A stretch of 64,000 bases of DNA, from positions 1 through 64,000 of the forward strand of contig JAJZPR010000011.1 in NCBI GenBank assembly GCA_021847835.1, given 5' to 3'. Position 1 is the first letter of the stretch. Every line of letters begins with the position of its first letter. Shown piece after piece: positions 47,904 through 58,082 of the stretch. This stretch comes from Pseudomonadota bacterium (GTDB taxonomy: Bacteria; Pseudomonadota; Gammaproteobacteria; Burkholderiales; Thiobacillaceae). The notes below the pieces were generated by a model. The model searched no databases. It was not told the origin of the DNA and saw only the letters and a list, made by a program, of their open reading frames with translations. Both the position numbers and the translations under genes were made by a program.

Positions 47904-50081
47904 ATGACCGAACGCATCCAGCTAGCCGGTTTACAGATCGCCAGGCCGCTTTACGACCTGGTGCGCGACGAGATCGCGCCGGGCACCGGCATCTCCGCCG
48001 ACCGCGCCTGGCAGGGCTTCGCCGACCTTGTGCGCGAGCTGACGCCAAGAAACCGCGCCCTGCTCGCCAGGCGCGACGAACTGCAGGCCAGGATCGACGC
48101 CTGGCATCTCGAACGCAAGGGCCGGCCACACGATGCCGCCGCCTACAAGCAATACCTCTACGACATCGGTTATCTCCTGCCCGAGGGCGATGACTTCAGC
48201 ATCGGCACGGAAAACGTCGACGACGAGATCGCCCGCATCGCAGGGCCGCAACTGGTGGTGCCGGTCAACAACGCGCGCTACGCGCTCAACGCCGCTAACG
48301 CGCGCTGGGGCAGCCTGTTCGACGCGCTCTATGGCACCGATGCCATTCCCGAAGACGCTGGCGCGGAGAAGAAAGGCGCCTTCAATCCCGTGCGCGGCGC
48401 CAGGGTCATCGCCACCGCCAAGGCCTTCCTCGACGAGGCGGCGCCGCTCACCGAAGGCAGCTACATCGACGCCATCGCCTATGCCGTCAAGGATGGCGGG
48501 CTCACGGTGACGCTTTCCAGCGGCGCACGCGTCGGACTGCGCGATCCCGCGCAGTTCAGGGGCTACCAGGAAAAGGCCGGCGGCATCACCTCCATCCTGC
48601 TGCGGCACCACGGCCTGCACATCGAGATCCATTTCAACACCGACCACCCCATCCACGAACTGCATCCCACCGGCATCCGCGACATCTATCTGGAGGCCGC
48701 CCTCTCCACCATCATGGACTGCGAGGATTCGGTCGCCGCGGTGGACGGCGACGACAAGGTGCGCGTCTACCGCAACTGGCTGGGTCTCATGAAGGGCGAG
48801 CTTTCCAGCAGCTTCGAAAAGGGCGGCAAGACGCTGACGCGCGCGCTCAATCCCGACCGCCGCTATCTCTCGCCCGAGGGCCGCTATTTCGAAATTCCCG
48901 GACGCAGCCTGATGCTGGTGCGCAATGTCGGCCACCTGATGACCACCGATGCGGTGCTGGACGAGCACGGCAACGAAGTGTTCGAGGGCCTGCTCGACGG
49001 CTTCGTCACCAGCTACTGCGCGCTGCACGACCTCAAGGGCACCAGCCGTCTCAAGAACAGCCGCGCCGGCAGCATCTACATCGTCAAGCCCAAGCAGCAC
49101 GGCCCCGACGAAGTCGCCTTCACCGTCGACCTGTTCGGGCGCATCGAGAACGTGCTGGAACTGCCGAAAAACACGCTCAAGATCGGCGTCATGGACGAGG
49201 AACGGCGCACCACGCTCAACCTCAAGGCATGCATCCGCGCGGCCTCCGAGCGGCTGATCTTCATCAACACCGGCTTCCTCGACCGCACCGGCGACGAGAT
49301 CCACACCTCCATGGAAGCCGGCCCGGTGCTGCGCAAGGGCGACATGAAAACCGCCGCCTGGCTCAAGGCCTACGAGAACTGGAACGTGGACGTGGGACTC
49401 GCCTGCAGGCTCTCCGGCCGCGCGCAGATCGGCAAGGGCATGTGGACCATGCCCGACCTCATGGCCGGCATGATGGCGGCGAAGCAGGCGCACCCCGAGG
49501 CCGGCGCCAATACCGCCTGGGTGCCTTCGCCCACAGCCGCAACCCTGCACGCCATCCACTACCACCGCGTCGACGTGTTCGCGCGCCAGCAGGAATTGCG
49601 CTCGCGCCCGCGCGCCTCGCTCGACGACCTGCTCGCGATACCGATCGTTGAAAAACCGAACTGGAGCGCGGAAGACATCCAGCAGGAACTCGACAACAAC
49701 ATCCAGGGCCTGCTCGGCTACGTCGTGCGCTGGATCGACCAGGGCATGGGCGCCTCCAAGGTGCCCGACATCCACAACGTCGGCCTCATGGAAGACCGTG
49801 CAACCCTGCGCATCTCCAGCCAGCATGTCGCCAACTGGCTGCACCACGGCATCGTCAGCGAAAGCCAGGTCATGGAAACGCTCAGGCGCATGGCCAGGCT
49901 GGTCGACCAGCAGAACGCCGGCGACCGCAACTACATCAACATGGCGCCGCACTACATCAGCCTCGCCTTCCAGGCCGCGCAGGACATGATCTTCCACGGC
50001 CGCCGCGTGCCCAACGGCTACACCGAACCCACCCTGCACCGGCGCCGGCGCGAGTTCAAGGCGGCCCTGCGCGGCGATTAG
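47904..50081 (+). CDS. glcB: malate synthase G
   Basis: 725 aa, [43 protein letters not shown]-type; [22 protein letters not shown]. Confidence 0.96.
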
Positions 50082-50171
50082 CCACGCGAATTAATCTCGG
50101 CGCGGCGACTAGTCGCGAAAATGTGGCTCAGCGCGAAGACTGAGACAACGCAAGGCCAAGGCCGGGCGGAT

Positions 50172-50540
50172 TCAGCTCACCGAGCCGAAGGACGGGTCAG
50201 CCGCGTGCGGCGCTTCCGGCAGGCCGGCCAGCTTCATGCCCTGCCGCACCGGCCCGCCGGGAAACAGCAGGAAGAGCCAGCGGCGGCCGCCCTGCTCCGC
50301 GAAGCGCTCTTCCAGCGCGCGCAGGATGTGCTGAGCGCCCTGACCGATGGCACCATGCGAGATGGCATAGTCGCGCAGAAAGTCCAGCACCTCAAAATGC
50401 TCGTCGGTCAGGGTAAGCCCTTCAGCCTTGGCCAGGCCGCGGGCCATGTCGCGCGACCATTCGCCGACCTCCACCAGGTTGCCGAAATGGTCGCGCACCA
50501 GCTGCTTGCCCTGGATGGCTTCCAGAATCGGGATGGCCAT
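50172..50540 (-). CDS. DsrC/TusE-family protein lacking all cysteines
   Basis: DEHFEVLDFLRDY...HILRALEERF...LFPGGPVRQGMKLAGLPEAP: DsrC C-terminal signature with both conserved Cys positions replaced; start trimmed to 50540. Confidence 0.85.
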   Translation of the reverse strand: MAIPILEAIQGKQLVRDHFGNLVEVGEWSRDMARGLAKAEGLTLTDEHFEVLDFLRDYAISHGAIGQGAQHILRALEERFAEQGGRRWLFLLFPGGPVRQGMKLAGLPEAPHAADPSFGSVS

Positions 50541-50554
50541 GTCCGCCCCTCCTC

Positions 50555-51061
50555 TCATTCGACGCGGATGGTAACGGACCTGGGCCTGCCCGGCTCGGCC
50601 TTGGGCAGCTCCACCCGCAGCACGCCGTTCTTGTAGGCGGCGCGCGCCTCCTCGGCCTTGACCGGCACCGGCAGCGGCACCACGCGGCGGAAGCTGCCGT
50701 AGGCGCATTGCATCACACGCCAGCGGCCCTCGGTTTCCTCGCGCGCGAAGCGCTTCTCGCCGGATACCACCAGGGCGTCGTCCAGCACCTCGATGCCGAT
50801 GTCCTCCTTCTCCATGCCCGGCACTTCCAGGCGCACGACCAGGCGCCTGTCGTCCTCGAACACGTCGCCGCCCAGCAGGGCCCAGCCGCGGTTGGGCAGC
50901 CAGGACACGTCATCCACCTCGACCTGGGCCGGCAGGTTGGTCTTCTCCCCGGCCCTGAAGCGCGTGAGCGCGCCGGCGGCGGACTGGATCATCTGCCGCC
51001 AGCCGTCGGCCAGGTTGTCCCAGAGGGACCCGACACTCTCTTTCAATGATTCCAGTTTCAT
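50555..51061 (-). CDS. Hsp20/alpha-crystallin small heat-shock protein
   Basis: DRRLVVRLEVPGMEKEDIGIEVLDDALVVSGEK; C-terminal VTIRVE. Confidence 0.93.
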   Translation of the reverse strand: MKLESLKESVGSLWDNLADGWRQMIQSAAGALTRFRAGEKTNLPAQVEVDDVSWLPNRGWALLGGDVFEDDRRLVVRLEVPGMEKEDIGIEVLDDALVVSGEKRFAREETEGRWRVMQCAYGSFRRVVPLPVPVKAEEARAAYKNGVLRVELPKAEPGRPRSVTIRVE

Positions 51062-51109
51062 GTCAGCCTCCTTGGTTCGCATGCGGGGCATCGAAGCCCC
51101 ATTCCCGAT

Positions 51110-51490
51110 TCAGTTCACCTTGACCTCGATGCGCCGCGGCTTGGCATGCTCGGCCTTGGGGATGTGCAGCTTGAGCACGCCCTGCCGGAATTCCGCGCTC
51201 ACCTTGTCGGTGTCGAGTTCCTTGGACAGGGTAAACATGCGGCGATAGCGCGGCAGGCTGACCTCGGCGTGGCTGGCCTCCATGCCCTCGGGCATGTCTA
51301 GCGCGATCTCGCCCTCGATGGTGAGCGTGTCGGCCTCCACCTGCAGCGCGAGCTTGTCCTTCGGCACGCCGGGCAGGTCGGCATACAGGGTAATGCCGCC
51401 GGCGTCCTCGATTACATCCACAGGCGGCAGTATGGCCGCCTCGCTGCGCGAGGCATCGGCGGTTTTGGCAACAGCAGCTTTTTCACTCAT
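51110..51490 (-). CDS. Hsp20/alpha-crystallin small heat-shock protein
   Basis: ITLYADLPGVPKDKLALQVEADTLTIEGE...LPRYRRMFTLSKELDTDKVSAEFRQGVLKLHIPK. Confidence 0.95.
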   Translation of the reverse strand: MSEKAAVAKTADASRSEAAILPPVDVIEDAGGITLYADLPGVPKDKLALQVEADTLTIEGEIALDMPEGMEASHAEVSLPRYRRMFTLSKELDTDKVSAEFRQGVLKLHIPKAEHAKPRRIEVKVN

Positions 51491-51502
51491 GGTCTGTCCT
51501 CC

Positions 51503-51934
51503 TTATTGAACGGTGATGCGCCTGGGCTGCGCTTCTTCCTTGCGCCGCACCGAGACGTGCAGCACGCCGTCGCGGTACCTGGCCTCGACGGTATTGGCGT
51601 CGATGTCGTCGGGCAGGCTGATCACGCGGCGGAAGCGGCCCGCGAAGCGCTCATCGATGTGCAGGGTCGCCGACTCCGGCACCTCGTCCAGCTTGCGCTC
51701 GCCGGCGATGGTGAGCACGCCCTTCTCGATTTGTACCTCGATGGACGCGGGATCGAGGCCGGACGCAAAGGCGTAAATCTCCACCGAACGTGGTGTACCA
51801 CCCACGTTCAGCGCCGGAAAACCGCGCGCAACGCCGCGGATGCTGGAGCCGAAATCGAAGCCCTGCTGCAGCTCGCGCTGCAGTCGGTCCAGTTCCGCGA
51901 ACAGGTCGCGGGGAAACAGGGAACGATAAAGCAT
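51503..51934 (-). CDS. Hsp20/alpha-crystallin small heat-shock protein
   Basis: VEIYAFASGLDPASIEVQIEKGVLTIAGERK...FRRVISLPDDIDANTVEARYRDGVLHVSVRR. Confidence 0.95.
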   Translation of the reverse strand: MLYRSLFPRDLFAELDRLQRELQQGFDFGSSIRGVARGFPALNVGGTPRSVEIYAFASGLDPASIEVQIEKGVLTIAGERKLDEVPESATLHIDERFAGRFRRVISLPDDIDANTVEARYRDGVLHVSVRRKEEAQPRRITVQ

Positions 51935-51939
51935 ATATG

Positions 51940-51970
51940 CCTCCTTTCTTCATTGCGTGCGCCAGCGAGG
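51940..51970 (-). promoter_or_regulatory. candidate ROSE-like SD/anti-SD pairing in hsp20 leader
   Basis: RNA CCUCGCU (51970-51964) can pair with SD AGGAGG (51945-51940) leaving a bulged G, as in ROSE UYGCU/SD pairing. Confidence 0.35.
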
Positions 51971-51985
51971 GCGCTCCTGAGCCCT

Positions 51986-52013
51986 ACATAGGGCGTCTCG
52001 TTTCAAGTTCAAC
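51986..52013 (-). promoter_or_regulatory. sigma32-type promoter of hsp20 operon
   Basis: -35 GTTGAAC, 13-bp spacer, -10 CCCTATGT (7/8 to CCCCATNT). Confidence 0.65.
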
Positions 52014-52015
52014 CC

Positions 52016-52044
52016 CTTGATTTGCGGATGGATATTCCACATTT
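52016..52044 (+). promoter_or_regulatory. sigma32-type promoter of cbpA-cbpM
   Basis: -35 CTTGATT, 14-bp spacer, -10 CCACATTT (7/8 to CCCCATNT). Confidence 0.6.
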
Positions 52045-52084
52045 TATCAAGCCATCGTTACAAATCGCAGCAGGTGGGAATCGC

Positions 52085-53005
52085 ATGAAATACCATGACT
52101 ACTACCATACGCTCGGGGTGAGCAGAGAAGCGTCGGCGGACGAGATCAAGAAGGCCTTCCGCCGCCTTGCGCGCAAGTACCATCCGGACATATCGAAGGA
52201 AGCGGACGCCGAGATGCGCATGAAGGAAATCAACGAGGCCTATGCGGTGCTCTCCGACCCCAAGAGGCGCGCCGCCTACGACCGCCTCGGCCAGGGCTAC
52301 CACACAGGCGAGGAATTCCACCCGCCGCCGGACTGGGGCGAGCGCTTCCACTTTTCCGCGCGCGGCTTCTCGCCCGACGAGGCCGCGCAGTTCAGCGACT
52401 TCTTCAGCGAGCTGTTCGGCGGCCCGGGCGGCTTCGGCCGCCAGGGCGGGCGTGGCTTTTCCGCGAACGGCGAGGACACCCATGCACGTGTGCTGTTGGA
52501 CATCGAGGACGCCTTCACCGGTGCCACGCGCCAGTTCAGCCTGCAGGTGCCGCAGGTCGACGCCCATGGCCAGCTGCGCATGGCGACCCGCACCCTCAAC
52601 GTGAAAATTCCCGTCGGCGTGCACGAAGGCCAGATCATCCGTCTGGCGGGCCAGGGCGCGCCCGGTTTCGGCGGCGGCCAGCCCGGCGACCTCTTGCTGG
52701 AAGTGCGCTTCAGGCCGCACCCGCGCCTGCGCGCGGAAGGCCGCGACCTCCATCTCAGCCTGCCGCTGGCGCCCTGGGAGGCGGCACTCGGCGCGGTGGT
52801 GTCGGTCGATCTGCCCAATGGCCCGCTCAAGGTGCGCATCCCACAGGGCGCGCAGAGCGGACGCCAACTGCGCGTGCGCGGCAAGAGCATCCCCGGCTCG
52901 CCGCCCGGCGACCTGCTCCTCGACCTCACGGTGGTGCTGCCGCCGGCCGACACGGCCCGGGCGCGCGAACTCGCTTTCGACCCGCGCCGTTCCTGGAGGG
53001 CATGA
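52085..53005 (+). CDS. cbpA: DnaJ-type co-chaperone CbpA (curved DNA-binding protein)
   Basis: J domain YYHTLGVSREASADEIKKAFRRLARKYHPDIS, HPD; no zinc-finger; DnaJ C domain; start trimmed to 52085. Confidence 0.92.
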   Translation: MKYHDYYHTLGVSREASADEIKKAFRRLARKYHPDISKEADAEMRMKEINEAYAVLSDPKRRAAYDRLGQGYHTGEEFHPPPDWGERFHFSARGFSPDEAAQFSDFFSELFGGPGGFGRQGGRGFSANGEDTHARVLLDIEDAFTGATRQFSLQVPQVDAHGQLRMATRTLNVKIPVGVHEGQIIRLAGQGAPGFGGGQPGDLLLEVRFRPHPRLRAEGRDLHLSLPLAPWEAALGAVVSVDLPNGPLKVRIPQGAQSGRQLRVRGKSIPGSPPGDLLLDLTVVLPPADTARARELAFDPRRSWRA

Positions 53006-53301
53006 ACATGCGCGAACAAGACATGCTGCCGGGCAGCCTGCTGGAAGAAAACTGGCTGACTCTGGAACAGGCGGCCGCAGCCTGCGCGGTGGAGCCGGAA
53101 TGGCTGCTCGCCCGCATCGAGGAAGGCCTGTTCCACCACGCCGAGAGCGCCTCCGGCCTGTGGCGCCTGTCCTGTGCTGGCCTCGTGCGAGCACGGCGCA
53201 TGCGCAATCTGGAGCGCGACTTCGAGGCGGTGCCGGAACTTGCCGCGCTGGTAGCCGACCTGCTAGAGGAAATGGACGCGCTGCGCGCCCGCCTGCGCTA
53301 A
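53002..53301 (+). CDS. cbpM: CbpA modulator CbpM
   Basis: 99 aa MerR-like HTH; overlaps cbpA stop by 4 bp. Confidence 0.85.
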   Translation: MNMREQDMLPGSLLEENWLTLEQAAAACAVEPEWLLARIEEGLFHHAESASGLWRLSCAGLVRARRMRNLERDFEAVPELAALVADLLEEMDALRARLR

Positions 53302-53361
53302 GGCTTTTCAAGCGGCGCGTTTTTTTGTTAATTTTTTCCTGCGCCCTGCATGGAGGAGTGT

Positions 53362-53988
53362 ATGGAAATCCTGCAAAGCATTACCGCCCAGATCGAAGCG
53401 GTCGGCCTGCCGCTTTATGCCGTGACCGTCAGCGCCGTGCCGCGGCCCGACACGCCGCTCCTGCTCGCGCTGCACTGGCACGGCTTCCGGCGCGACGAGG
53501 CACTCCCGCGCGATGCGCCGCCCGCCAACCGCCCTGTGCCCGGCTCCGCCCTGCAGCTCAACCAGCCCTGGACTGCGCTGGAGGAAATCGACCGCGCCAT
53601 GCTCGACGCCGCCTGGCGGCTCGGCGCGTGGGACATGGAGCGGCGAACCGCCCGCGCCTGCTCCCACGTCGGCGCCTCGGCGCGCGAGGCGCTGGAATGC
53701 CGCCAGGCTTTCGGTGACAACCCCTTCGCCCCCGGCGACGAATCCCACCTGCTGGCCGAGGCCCCCGACCGCGCCGACCTCATGTATCTGGCCGCGGCCA
53801 AGGGCTACGTGCGCTGGCTGTTCCGTCCGGTGCTTGGCGGGCTGTGGCGAAACACTGCCGAGGACGACACCCTCGCGCCTGACGGCGGCCGAGCCCCGCC
53901 CTGCCCCGTCGCACCGCAGGCGACGGGCGGGCGCAACGCTCGAACCATCTACCGCCTGGGCAGGGTTTCGCGCATCATCGTGCGCTGA
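53362..53988 (+). CDS. hypothetical protein between cbpM and groES
   Basis: ORF with good SD (GGAGGAG) before ATG 53362; no family recognised. Confidence 0.65.
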   Translation: MEILQSITAQIEAVGLPLYAVTVSAVPRPDTPLLLALHWHGFRRDEALPRDAPPANRPVPGSALQLNQPWTALEEIDRAMLDAAWRLGAWDMERRTARACSHVGASAREALECRQAFGDNPFAPGDESHLLAEAPDRADLMYLAAAKGYVRWLFRPVLGGLWRNTAEDDTLAPDGGRAPPCPVAPQATGGRNARTIYRLGRVSRIIVR

Positions 53989-53996
53989 ACACCCCT

Positions 53997-54024
53997 CTTG
54001 AAATCCCGCGCGGCATCCCTAAAT
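53997..54024 (+). promoter_or_regulatory. sigma32-type promoter of groESL
   Basis: -35 CTTGAAA (perfect), 13-bp spacer, -10 CCCTAAAT (6/8). Confidence 0.75.
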
Positions 54025-54147
54025 CACTTCCGCCGGTTTTCCGCCGGCATGATCCGCCGCCCGGGCGCCGGACCCTCTCCCGCTGCGCCGGCGGCGCGAT
54101 CGTTTCATTCTCATTGGTGACATGAACTCGTTAAAGGAGACAGAACT

Positions 54148-54465
54148 ATGCATATTCGTCCCCTGCACGACCGGATCATCGTCAAGCGAGTCGAAGCGCA
54201 GCGCACGACGGCTTCCGGCATCGTGATCCCCGATACCGCCGCAGAAAAACCCGAGCAGGGCGAAGTCATCGCCGTCGGCCCCGGCAAACGTGACGACAAG
54301 GGCACGCTGATTGCCATGGACATCAAGGTCGGCGATCGCGTGCTGTTCGGCAAGTACGCCGTCCAGACCGTCAAGGTTGAAGGCGAGGAACTGCTGGTGA
54401 TGCGCGAGGACGACGTCATGGGCGTCATCGAGGACGGCGCCCAGGCCGTCAAGAAGGCCGCCTGA
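54148..54465 (+). CDS. groES: co-chaperonin GroES
   Basis: [29 protein letters not shown]. Confidence 0.97.
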
Positions 54466-54484
54466 CCCCCTTTGCAGGCTTTAG

Positions 54485-56119
<1,635 letters not shown>

Positions 56120-56133
56120 TCGGCGCCCTTCCG

Positions 56134-56160
56134 CATCCCGCTCCCGCCCGGGGCGGGATG
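56134..56160 (+). terminator. hairpin after groEL
   Basis: CATCCCGC-N11-GCGGGATG followed by TCTTTTCC. Confidence 0.6.
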
Positions 56161-56187
56161 TCTTTTCCATACGCACCGCGCACTGCC

Positions 56188-56685
56188 ATGAACGACACGC
56201 GCCAGCGTTCGACCCTCTCCGAATTCAAGGTGGCATGGCCGCTGATGAGTTTCTACGAACGCTTCGAACAGATCGTCGCCCTGCTGCTTTCCGGCGTCAT
56301 CGCCGTGGTCATCGTCATCTCGCTCGTGCAGCTAGTGCGCACGGTATATCACCTGCTTTTCCTGGAAGCCTTCAACCCGCTCGAGCATCATGTCTTCCAG
56401 ACCGTGTTCGGCATGATCATGACGCTGCTCATCGCCATGGAGTTCAAGCACTCCATCATCAAGGTCGCACTGCGCCGCGACAGCATCATCCAGGTGAAGA
56501 CCGTGGTGCTGATCGCCCTCATCGCGCTGTCGCGCAAGTTCGTCATCCTCGACGCCGACGCGAGTCCCGCGCGCATCGCCGCCCTGGCCGCGGCCGCGCT
56601 GGCACTGGGCGCCATCTACTGGCTGCTGCGCGAACGCGACGACAGGATCGGCGAGACCGCTGCAGAACAACGTGAAAGTGCCTGA
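56188..56685 (+). CDS. PsiE family membrane protein (phosphate-starvation-inducible type)
   Basis: FEQIVALLLSGVIAVVIVISLVQLVRTVYHLLF...FGMIMTLLIAMEFKHSI...RKFVILD. Confidence 0.88.
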   Translation: MNDTRQRSTLSEFKVAWPLMSFYERFEQIVALLLSGVIAVVIVISLVQLVRTVYHLLFLEAFNPLEHHVFQTVFGMIMTLLIAMEFKHSIIKVALRRDSIIQVKTVVLIALIALSRKFVILDADASPARIAALAAAALALGAIYWLLRERDDRIGETAAEQRESA

Positions 56686-56688
56686 AGC

Positions 56689-57231
56689 TCAGATGCCGGG
56701 CAGTTCCAGGGTGAAGAGATCACCCAGCGCCTGGCGGATTTCGCCTACCGTCAAGTGGCGCGGAATGCCCATGCCGGCGGCATACTGATCGCTCTGGCAA
56801 GTGAGCCGCAGCACCCCGGGCTGCCGCTCGGAGCGCAGCGTGAAGACGGTCTTGTAGAACATCTGGCTTGGCCGGTCGATGCCGGCAAAGGCCGCCCGCA
56901 TGAAGAACCCGGGTTTGGCAGCGATAGTGCTCTCGCTGCGCGTCACCCTCACGATGGCAAAGCTGTCCGCTGCCACCCGTTGCGGCATCTCGCGTACCGT
57001 GCCGATCTCGAAAATGCAGTGCGGCGACTGCTCCTGCACATGGCCGAAAGCCACCACCCTGCCGCCCTGGATCCGCACCGTCGCCCAATTCGCCGGAATT
57101 TCCACAGCGCGGTTCAACACCAGGCGGCTGTCCGCAGAAAATCTGTAGTAGGGCGTCTCCGGGCCGTAGCTGCGTGGCGTATCGCAGCCCCACAAGAATA
57201 CGGCAAGACACAACAGCAAGGCATGTTTCAT
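56689..57231 (-). CDS. hypothetical lipoprotein
   Basis: Lipobox LWGC; 180 aa. Confidence 0.65.
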   Translation of the reverse strand: MKHALLLCLAVFLWGCDTPRSYGPETPYYRFSADSRLVLNRAVEIPANWATVRIQGGRVVAFGHVQEQSPHCIFEIGTVREMPQRVAADSFAIVRVTRSESTIAAKPGFFMRAAFAGIDRPSQMFYKTVFTLRSERQPGVLRLTCQSDQYAAGMGIPRHLTVGEIRQALGDLFTLELPGI

Positions 57232-57351: not shown

Positions 57352-57672
57352 TTATCCCTTCTCTTGTACCACGACCTTGTCCCGCTCGATGATCCTGCGG
57401 AACTCCCCGCTCGTGCTTGCCCAGTCCACGACATCCACCTTCCACGGGAGATCGGATTCCGAGAAATCGTCTGCCAGCGCGGCACTCACCGAAAGCGGCA
57501 GCGGCACGTTGGCGATGATGGCAAGATCAAGGTCGGAATATGGTTTGGCCGTCCCTTTGGCGCGTGAGCCGAAGGCCCATACCTCATGCTGCGGCACATG
57601 CTTTTGCAGAATTCCACTCACAATGCGCCAGTGATCCGGGCGAATGTCAATGGACGGAACGCCTTCGGTCAT
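57352..57672 (-). CDS. MNT-type nucleotidyltransferase (MntA-like antitoxin)
   Basis: GSRAKGTAKPYSDLDLAI minimal nucleotidyltransferase motif. Confidence 0.9.
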   Translation of the reverse strand: MTEGVPSIDIRPDHWRIVSGILQKHVPQHEVWAFGSRAKGTAKPYSDLDLAIIANVPLPLSVSAALADDFSESDLPWKVDVVDWASTSGEFRRIIERDKVVVQEKG

Positions 57673-58082
57673 GCCAGCCTGGCTCTCAGTTGGTCGCGCA
57701 ACCAGACGGTTTCCTGCAGGAAGTCCGGAATGCCGCCCACCACCACCAAGGCCACCTCTTCATCGTAGGTGTGGCTGGTTTTGCTTCGCATGTCGCGATA
57801 CTGCCGCCACCGCGGCCAGTCGCTGCGCAATAAACCCTGCTCGTTTGCAGTGCGAATCAGGTCCTGGAAAGACATGGCGTCAAATTGCGCGGGCGTGGCC
57901 GATGCAAACTCGAGATAGCGCTTGAGCATTTTGTGGCTGAGTTCATAGGTGAACTCGAAACGCTGGATGAGCCCGTCGCGGATTTGCGTGTCTGCAACGT
58001 CATTTTGATAACGCAGCCAGCCTTCCTGCAGGCGATCGATTGCTTTCTCGAATGCGGCGATATCGGGTTTTTCACTTGCCAT
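57669..58082 (-). CDS. HEPN-family (HI0074-like) toxin
   Basis: RX4HXY motif RSKTSHTY; 4-bp overlap with the MNT gene; start trimmed to 58082. Confidence 0.87.
   Translation of the reverse strand: MASEKPDIAAFEKAIDRLQEGWLRYQNDVADTQIRDGLIQRFEFTYELSHKMLKRYLEFASATPAQFDAMSFQDLIRTANEQGLLRSDWPRWRQYRDMRSKTSHTYDEEVALVVVGGIPDFLQETVWLRDQLRARLA

Follow-up and report, generated by a model that had tools for sequence, protein, structure and literature searches.

The last gene of an hsp20 operon in this Thiobacillaceae genome, with orthologues in further sulfur-oxidising bacteria, encodes a DsrC-family protein without a single cysteine. Alignments indicate that it belongs to a separate DsrC subfamily, recognised by a conserved C-terminal tail, and among 399 genomes of the order this tail was found only where dsrA was also present. 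We consider it quite possible, though short of probable, that the gene product is a thiol-free DsrC paralogue, induced by heat shock, that would act by docking on a Dsr-pathway protein, as a cap or an adaptor, and not by sulfur carriage. Positions refer to the window, the whole 64,000-nucleotide stretch of DNA analysed, and are collected in Table 1.

A DsrC-family protein without cysteine

The reading frame begins with ATG, preceded by GAGAGGAGGGG, a strong Shine-Dalgarno stretch. Its 122-aa product matches PF04358 (DsrC; 3.9e-20, 72.7 bits against a cut-off of 24.9) and TIGR03342 (71.5 bits against 53.5), and falls below the cut-off of the TusE equivalog NF008562 (66.2 against 191 bits). The best solved relative by sequence is A. 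vinosum DsrC (1yx3, 1.9e-15). An AlphaFold model built on 13 sequences reached a mean pLDDT of 76.9 (a single-sequence model with pLDDT 53 was discarded), and Foldseek matched it with probability 1.00 to 1yx3, 1ji8, 7syb and 3or1_C and to no other structure. By this model, the DsrC fold is present in the Cys-free protein; the C-terminal tail is predicted with pLDDT below 50-57.

The penultimate cysteine CysA (Cys111 in A. vinosum) has been described as strictly conserved in DsrC (PMC3397948), and CysB (Cys100) is a feature of DsrC that occurs with DsrAB. Neither of these marks of a functional carrier is present here: the CysB place is occupied by Met102, within QGMKLAGLP, and CysA is missing, the chain running on as ...EAPHAADPSFGSVS. 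An earlier note, made from the sequence alone, had described the protein as a Cys-free DsrC homologue, which is correct, and had taken both signature cysteines to be replaced. The latter stands for CysB; at CysA nothing has been substituted, and the chain continues into a different conserved tail (DxSFGSV). We agree with the note that persulfide or trisulfide carriage should be impossible on chemical grounds, because the protein is truly Cys-free.

The protein thus shares with DsrC (dissimilatory sulfite reductase gamma; PF04358/TIGR03342) the fold, the core helices, the LFPxGPxxQ..AGLP motif and the core length, but differs from it in lacking CysA and CysB, in ending with eight residues, DPSFGSVS, where DsrC ends PTGC(I/V), and in being encoded in an hsp20 operon rather than a dsr operon. 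TusE, of the tRNA 2-thiouridylation relay, falls in the same Pfam and TIGRFAM subfamily but retains the penultimate Cys. Cysteine variation among DsrC relatives (PMC3397948) and viral DsrC variants (PMC4164917) were already known. The earlier note had proposed looking for a canonical dsrC elsewhere in the genome, and a two-Cys dsrC is indeed found at C9:41043-41360, together with five other PF04358 genes. Counting PF04358 matches as dsrC therefore overstates the number of sulfur carriers, with seven matches in this genome and one canonical two-Cys DsrC.

The hsp20 operon and its predicted promoters

As the earlier note had it, the dsrC-like gene follows three same-strand hsp20 genes, all matching PF00011, the last of which stops 14 nt before its start codon. 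No terminator-like site was seen on the minus strand from hsp20a to the dsrC-like gene, and an Rfam search near the operon gave nothing above threshold. A scan with an E. coli-type sigma-32 consensus predicted one promoter site upstream of each of hsp20a (distance 51 nt), cbpA (40 nt) and groES (about 120 nt). These are the only three sites scoring at least 11.3 on either strand of the window, and all stand ahead of transcription units of the island described below. Simulation gave a mean of 4.5 such sites, so that a count of 3 does not exceed chance; it is the placement of these predicted sites, not their number, that is the evidence. Matching sites occur in the related genomes G108, G113, G036, G574 and G531 (hsp20 side, p <=0.007 by shuffling), with weaker ones in G088 and G079. 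A counterpart of the 212-aa protein of the island, 208 aa long, is encoded at the same place in G036 (gene call in L073).

Table 1. Features of the dsrC-like locus in the window
Feature	Position	Strand	Description and support
Accessory stress block	50082..56688	.	missing at this place from three congeners; flanks contiguous in G003, G004, G001
Cys-free DsrC-family gene	50172..50540	-	122 aa; last gene of hsp20 operon; PF04358, TIGR03342, Foldseek to DsrC structures
Codons of conserved C-terminal tail DPSFGSVS	50175..50198	-	residues 115-122; tail in all close relatives found and in 64 collected members
Met102, at DsrC CysB place	50235..50237	-	Met in 10/10 clade members (alignments)
hsp20c	50555..51061	-	168 aa (longer reading starts at 51091); PF00011 6.7e-21
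hsp20b	51110..51490	-	126 aa; PF00011 1.2e-17
hsp20a	51503..51934	-	143 aa; first gene of operon; PF00011 1.7e-19
Sigma-32-like promoter of hsp20-dsrC-like operon (predicted)	51986..52013	-	GTTGAAC-N13-CCCTATGT; consensus scan
Divergent sigma-32-like promoter of cbpA (predicted)	52016..52044	+	CTTGATT-N14-CCACATTT; consensus scan
cbpA-type DnaJ	52085..53005	+	306 aa; PF00226 and PF01556
cbpM-like co-chaperone modulator	53002..53301	+	99 aa; 4-nt overlap with cbpA; PF13591 31.7 bits; name CbpM from place behind cbpA
212-aa protein	53350..53988	+	no Pfam or NCBIfam match
Sigma-32-like site ahead of groES (predicted)	53997..54024	+	CTTGAAA-N13-CCCTAAAT; consensus scan
groES	54148..54465	+	translation, named from sequence
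groEL	54497..56119	+	TIGR02348 854 bits
Intrinsic-terminator-like hairpin behind groEL	56133..56161	+	
psiE-family gene	56188..56685	+	PF06146 5.8e-32

One possible explanation for a DsrC-like gene in such an operon is a transcriptional regulator, in which the helical DsrC core would bind DNA and, under stress, control the dsr genes or the island itself. The literature mentions that DsrC may take part in regulating transcription (PMC7787665, citing Venceslau 2014), but the protein has no HTH family match above threshold, Foldseek gave good scores to DsrC structures only, with HTH proteins at E 2 or worse, and the last gene of a sigma-32 chaperone operon needs no extra regulator. We regard this reading as improbable.

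A Cys-free clade linked to hsp20

The earlier note had also suggested a family-wide alignment for Cys-less members with hsp20 neighbours, and this yielded a clade of ten from two families. Orthologues were found in seven further genomes of the family (58-69% identity), making the gene present in 8/117 family genomes, and in two from another family of the same order. The ten members form one branch with support of 100/99, and in the alignments each is Cys-free with Met at position 102. A sequencing error restoring the cysteines, which the note had named as a refutation, is excluded as the source of their absence by the agreement of nine independent orthologues. Values of dN/dS between close pairs of the clade (0.05-0.17) point to purifying selection and rule out a pseudogene.

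Recurrent linkage to hsp20 in relatives, its absence having been set beforehand as a second refutation, was observed in all ten members, each within a chaperone cluster. In the typical arrangement, degP-psiE-(kefB)-trx-ftsH-htpX-cbpM-cbpA is divergent from a set of one to three hsp20 genes, after which the dsrC-like gene comes; the gene next to it is often dnaJ, dnaK or a further hsp20. The exception is G079, where no hsp20 was called ahead of the dsrC-like gene and one follows directly after it. Together with the sigma-32-like promoter, this context supports the stress function suggested in the note. The gene might instead be a passenger, caught in the island by chance and persisting without function, as its patchy presence (the eight family genomes and the two of the other family) could suggest. 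The low dN/dS, the position kept in rearranged clusters and the conserved tail speak against this, and we consider it very improbable.

The C-terminal tail defines a subfamily in sequence comparisons

A profile of the Hsp20-linked clade, which was not chosen for the tail, found about 30 further genes in searches of the class and order. All genes read from this search end in [DNE]x[SAGH]FG[ST], none has a penultimate Cys, and the CysB place holds Cys, Ser, Met, Asn or Gly. About half of this wide DxSFGSV subfamily retains a single Cys at the CysB position, and most of it lies away from hsp20, the other members inspected having no adjoining hsp20. By comparison of these sequences, the tail, rather than the cysteines, is the conserved feature, and it defines a separate DsrC subfamily without the penultimate Cys, not a decayed DsrC arm. 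The variation at the CysB place also bears on sulfur carriage by another route, with Met102 or a bound cofactor standing in for cysteine chemistry. Met is invariant there within the clade, but in relatives the residue is Ser, Asn, Gly or Cys, no persulfide can form on methionine and the clade is without any Cys, so that we find this hardly credible.

A paralogue in the same genome (G000:C1:67086-67455) is representative of the single-Cys members: it shares the last eight residues, DPSFGSVS, and the motif QG[CM][RK]LAGL with the dsrC-like protein, but has Cys at the CysB place, and its neighbours are srkA and a HAMP/sensor gene instead of hsp20. In at least three genomes of the genus (L013:7084-7455, L049:8381-8752, L053:6851-7222), single-Cys tail paralogues are flanked on one side by an srkA-like stress kinase gene and on the other by a gene for a HAMP-type sensor. 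Other neighbours were also noticed. Several family genomes (L076:7135-7995, L078(rev):3304-4164, L128(rev):2619-3488) encode an FGE-sulfatase/SUMF1-like protein (PF03781) immediately upstream of tail-bearing DsrC-like genes, frequently close to moaC and a gene for a BepA-type M48 protease, and a small acidic protein with the motif FEPKN(E/D)LE...VFMP, possibly SseB-like, adjoins tail-bearing genes in three genomes (L124(rev):3033-3452, L129(rev):7389-7832, L135(rev):5963-6358).

Beyond these genomes, a scan of genome contigs gave one named relative, Thiobacillus sp. UBA2597, and tblastn against plasmids gave no direct DPSFGSV homologue, only TusE-like matches of <60% identity. DsrC genes are carried by 16 IMG/VR contigs (L161-L176), nearly all with the canonical two-cysteine C-terminus; none of these 16 viral loci has the tail, and L173, ending in PAACG, is the only one without the canonical C-terminal arm.

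Co-occurrence with dsrA and proposed function

For the 399 genomes of the order, the tail was sought with a 29-residue profile (threshold 1e-8, canonical DsrC arms reaching only about 1e-5) and dsrA was called with TIGR02064 (E <=1e-40). The tail was found in 61 genomes from 13 families and dsrA in 87; the tail is present in 61/87 dsrA-positive versus 0/312 dsrA-negative genomes (Fisher p about 1e-51, with related genomes counted as independent samples). This restriction to dsrA-bearing genomes had escaped the earlier note. All ten Hsp20-linked clade genomes have dsrA, some as fragments, and in six genomes a tail gene lies within about 12 kb of dsrA. In one genome, two tail-bearing DsrC-like genes (G582:C6:19190 and 28532) are about 12 and 2.7 kb from it. 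In G413, a class-level genome with tail genes that is 72% complete, dsrA was not found. It may be sulfur oxidisers as a group, and not Dsr itself, that the co-occurrence follows.

The chaperone modules themselves give a further comparison. The cbpM-cbpA / hsp20a-hsp20b-hsp20c module recurs in the dsrA-negative genomes G023, G536, G579 and G618, where tblastn found it to lack a DsrC-like gene. Two dsrA-positive genomes, G674 and G498, have Hsp20c relatives with no dsrC-like gene nearby, and the gene is therefore no obligatory cargo. From these small numbers, it looks like an optional add-on of chaperone modules, present only in Dsr organisms.

The main rival to a Dsr-directed role is a general proteostasis co-factor, in which the DsrC fold would have been recruited to serve Hsp20, CbpA, FtsH or DnaK as an adaptor for clients or chaperones and would have nothing to do with sulfur enzymes. 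The shared operon with hsp20, the dnaK/dnaJ, ftsH, htpX and degP genes adjoining in relatives and the lack of cysteine are all in keeping with it. It leaves unexplained, however, both the restriction of the tail subfamily to dsrA-positive genomes and the missing dsrC-like gene in the same module of dsrA-negative ones, and we judge it somewhat unlikely.

Docking on a Dsr-pathway protein fits best, because it accommodates the thiol-free DsrC surface, the selection on the gene, the predicted co-expression with chaperones and the restriction to Dsr organisms. Under this proposal, heat shock would switch on the sigma-32 promoter, and the Hsp20 chaperones and the DsrC-like protein would be made from one transcript. 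The protein would keep the globular surface of DsrC, with the DPSFGSV tail where the CysA tip would be, and would bind a dissimilatory Dsr-pathway protein, for which DsrAB, DsrEFH and DsrMK are candidates. It might then cap a sulfur-transfer site, protecting or parking the enzyme during stress, or it might pass a damaged complex to the Hsp20/CbpA system. A bolder form of the proposal, which we offer as speculation and think unlikely, is that this Cys-free mimic of DsrC is induced together with Hsp20 and, during stress, caps or parks the reverse Dsr machinery as a hibernation-type factor for dissimilatory sulfur oxidation, and that the DxSFGSV-tail subfamily is a new class of non-carrier Dsr partners.

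DsrC is defined by its cysteines, and a Cys-free branch that is under selection and travels with chaperones suggests that the DsrC surface is useful apart from sulfur transfer. The strict co-occurrence of tail and dsrA likewise suggests that the Dsr pathway has a layer of protein-protein contacts not recognised so far. The DsrC fold and family are known; for the tail subfamily, its co-occurrence with dsrA and the Cys-free branch in an hsp20 operon, our literature search found no description, nor any usable account of Cys-less DsrC. A review beyond the scope of that search (Venceslau 2014) reportedly discusses DsrC homologues lacking cysteines.

An accessory stress island

The operon lies in a 6.6-kb block, also missed by the earlier note, that comprises the dsrC-like gene, three hsp20 genes, cbpA, cbpM, groESL and psiE. 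In G003, G004 and G001, the orthologue of the malate synthase gene at 47904-50081 (89-90% identical) is followed directly by the orthologue of 56689-57120; since the flanking genes are contiguous there, the block is accessory and the contig native. A contaminating contig (the contamination estimate of the MAG is 7%) is ruled out by flanking genes 86-90% identical to those of congeners and in the same order.

The clusters of relatives share FtsH, HtpX, Trx, KefB, PsiE, DegP and Hsp20 with the tLST / LHR / TLQC stress island, but differ from it by the addition of CbpA, CbpM, GroESL and the DsrC-like gene. Published tLST families include FtsH, Trx, KefB, PsiE, HtpX and DegP; in that review DsrC goes unmentioned, and cbpA, cbpM and groESL are not tLST genes (PMC8290217). 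As to the core that defines tLST (PMC8290217), neither the island nor the clusters of relatives have clpG (ClpG/ClpK) among their called genes, and we therefore call the cluster tLST-like, not tLST. The tLST-type accessory families occur in relatives such as G574; in the window, psiE is the only one. An HtpX relative, 60-80% identical, occurs on 1254 plasmid records, and the one inspected has the order psiE-htpX-degP (DegP-like). Beyond the block, at 57352-58082, two short minus-strand ORFs, nucleotidyltransferase-like and HEPN-like by eye, resemble an MNT/HEPN toxin-antitoxin pair; G001 has no matching genes at this place, and the stretch is of lower G+C (0.586).
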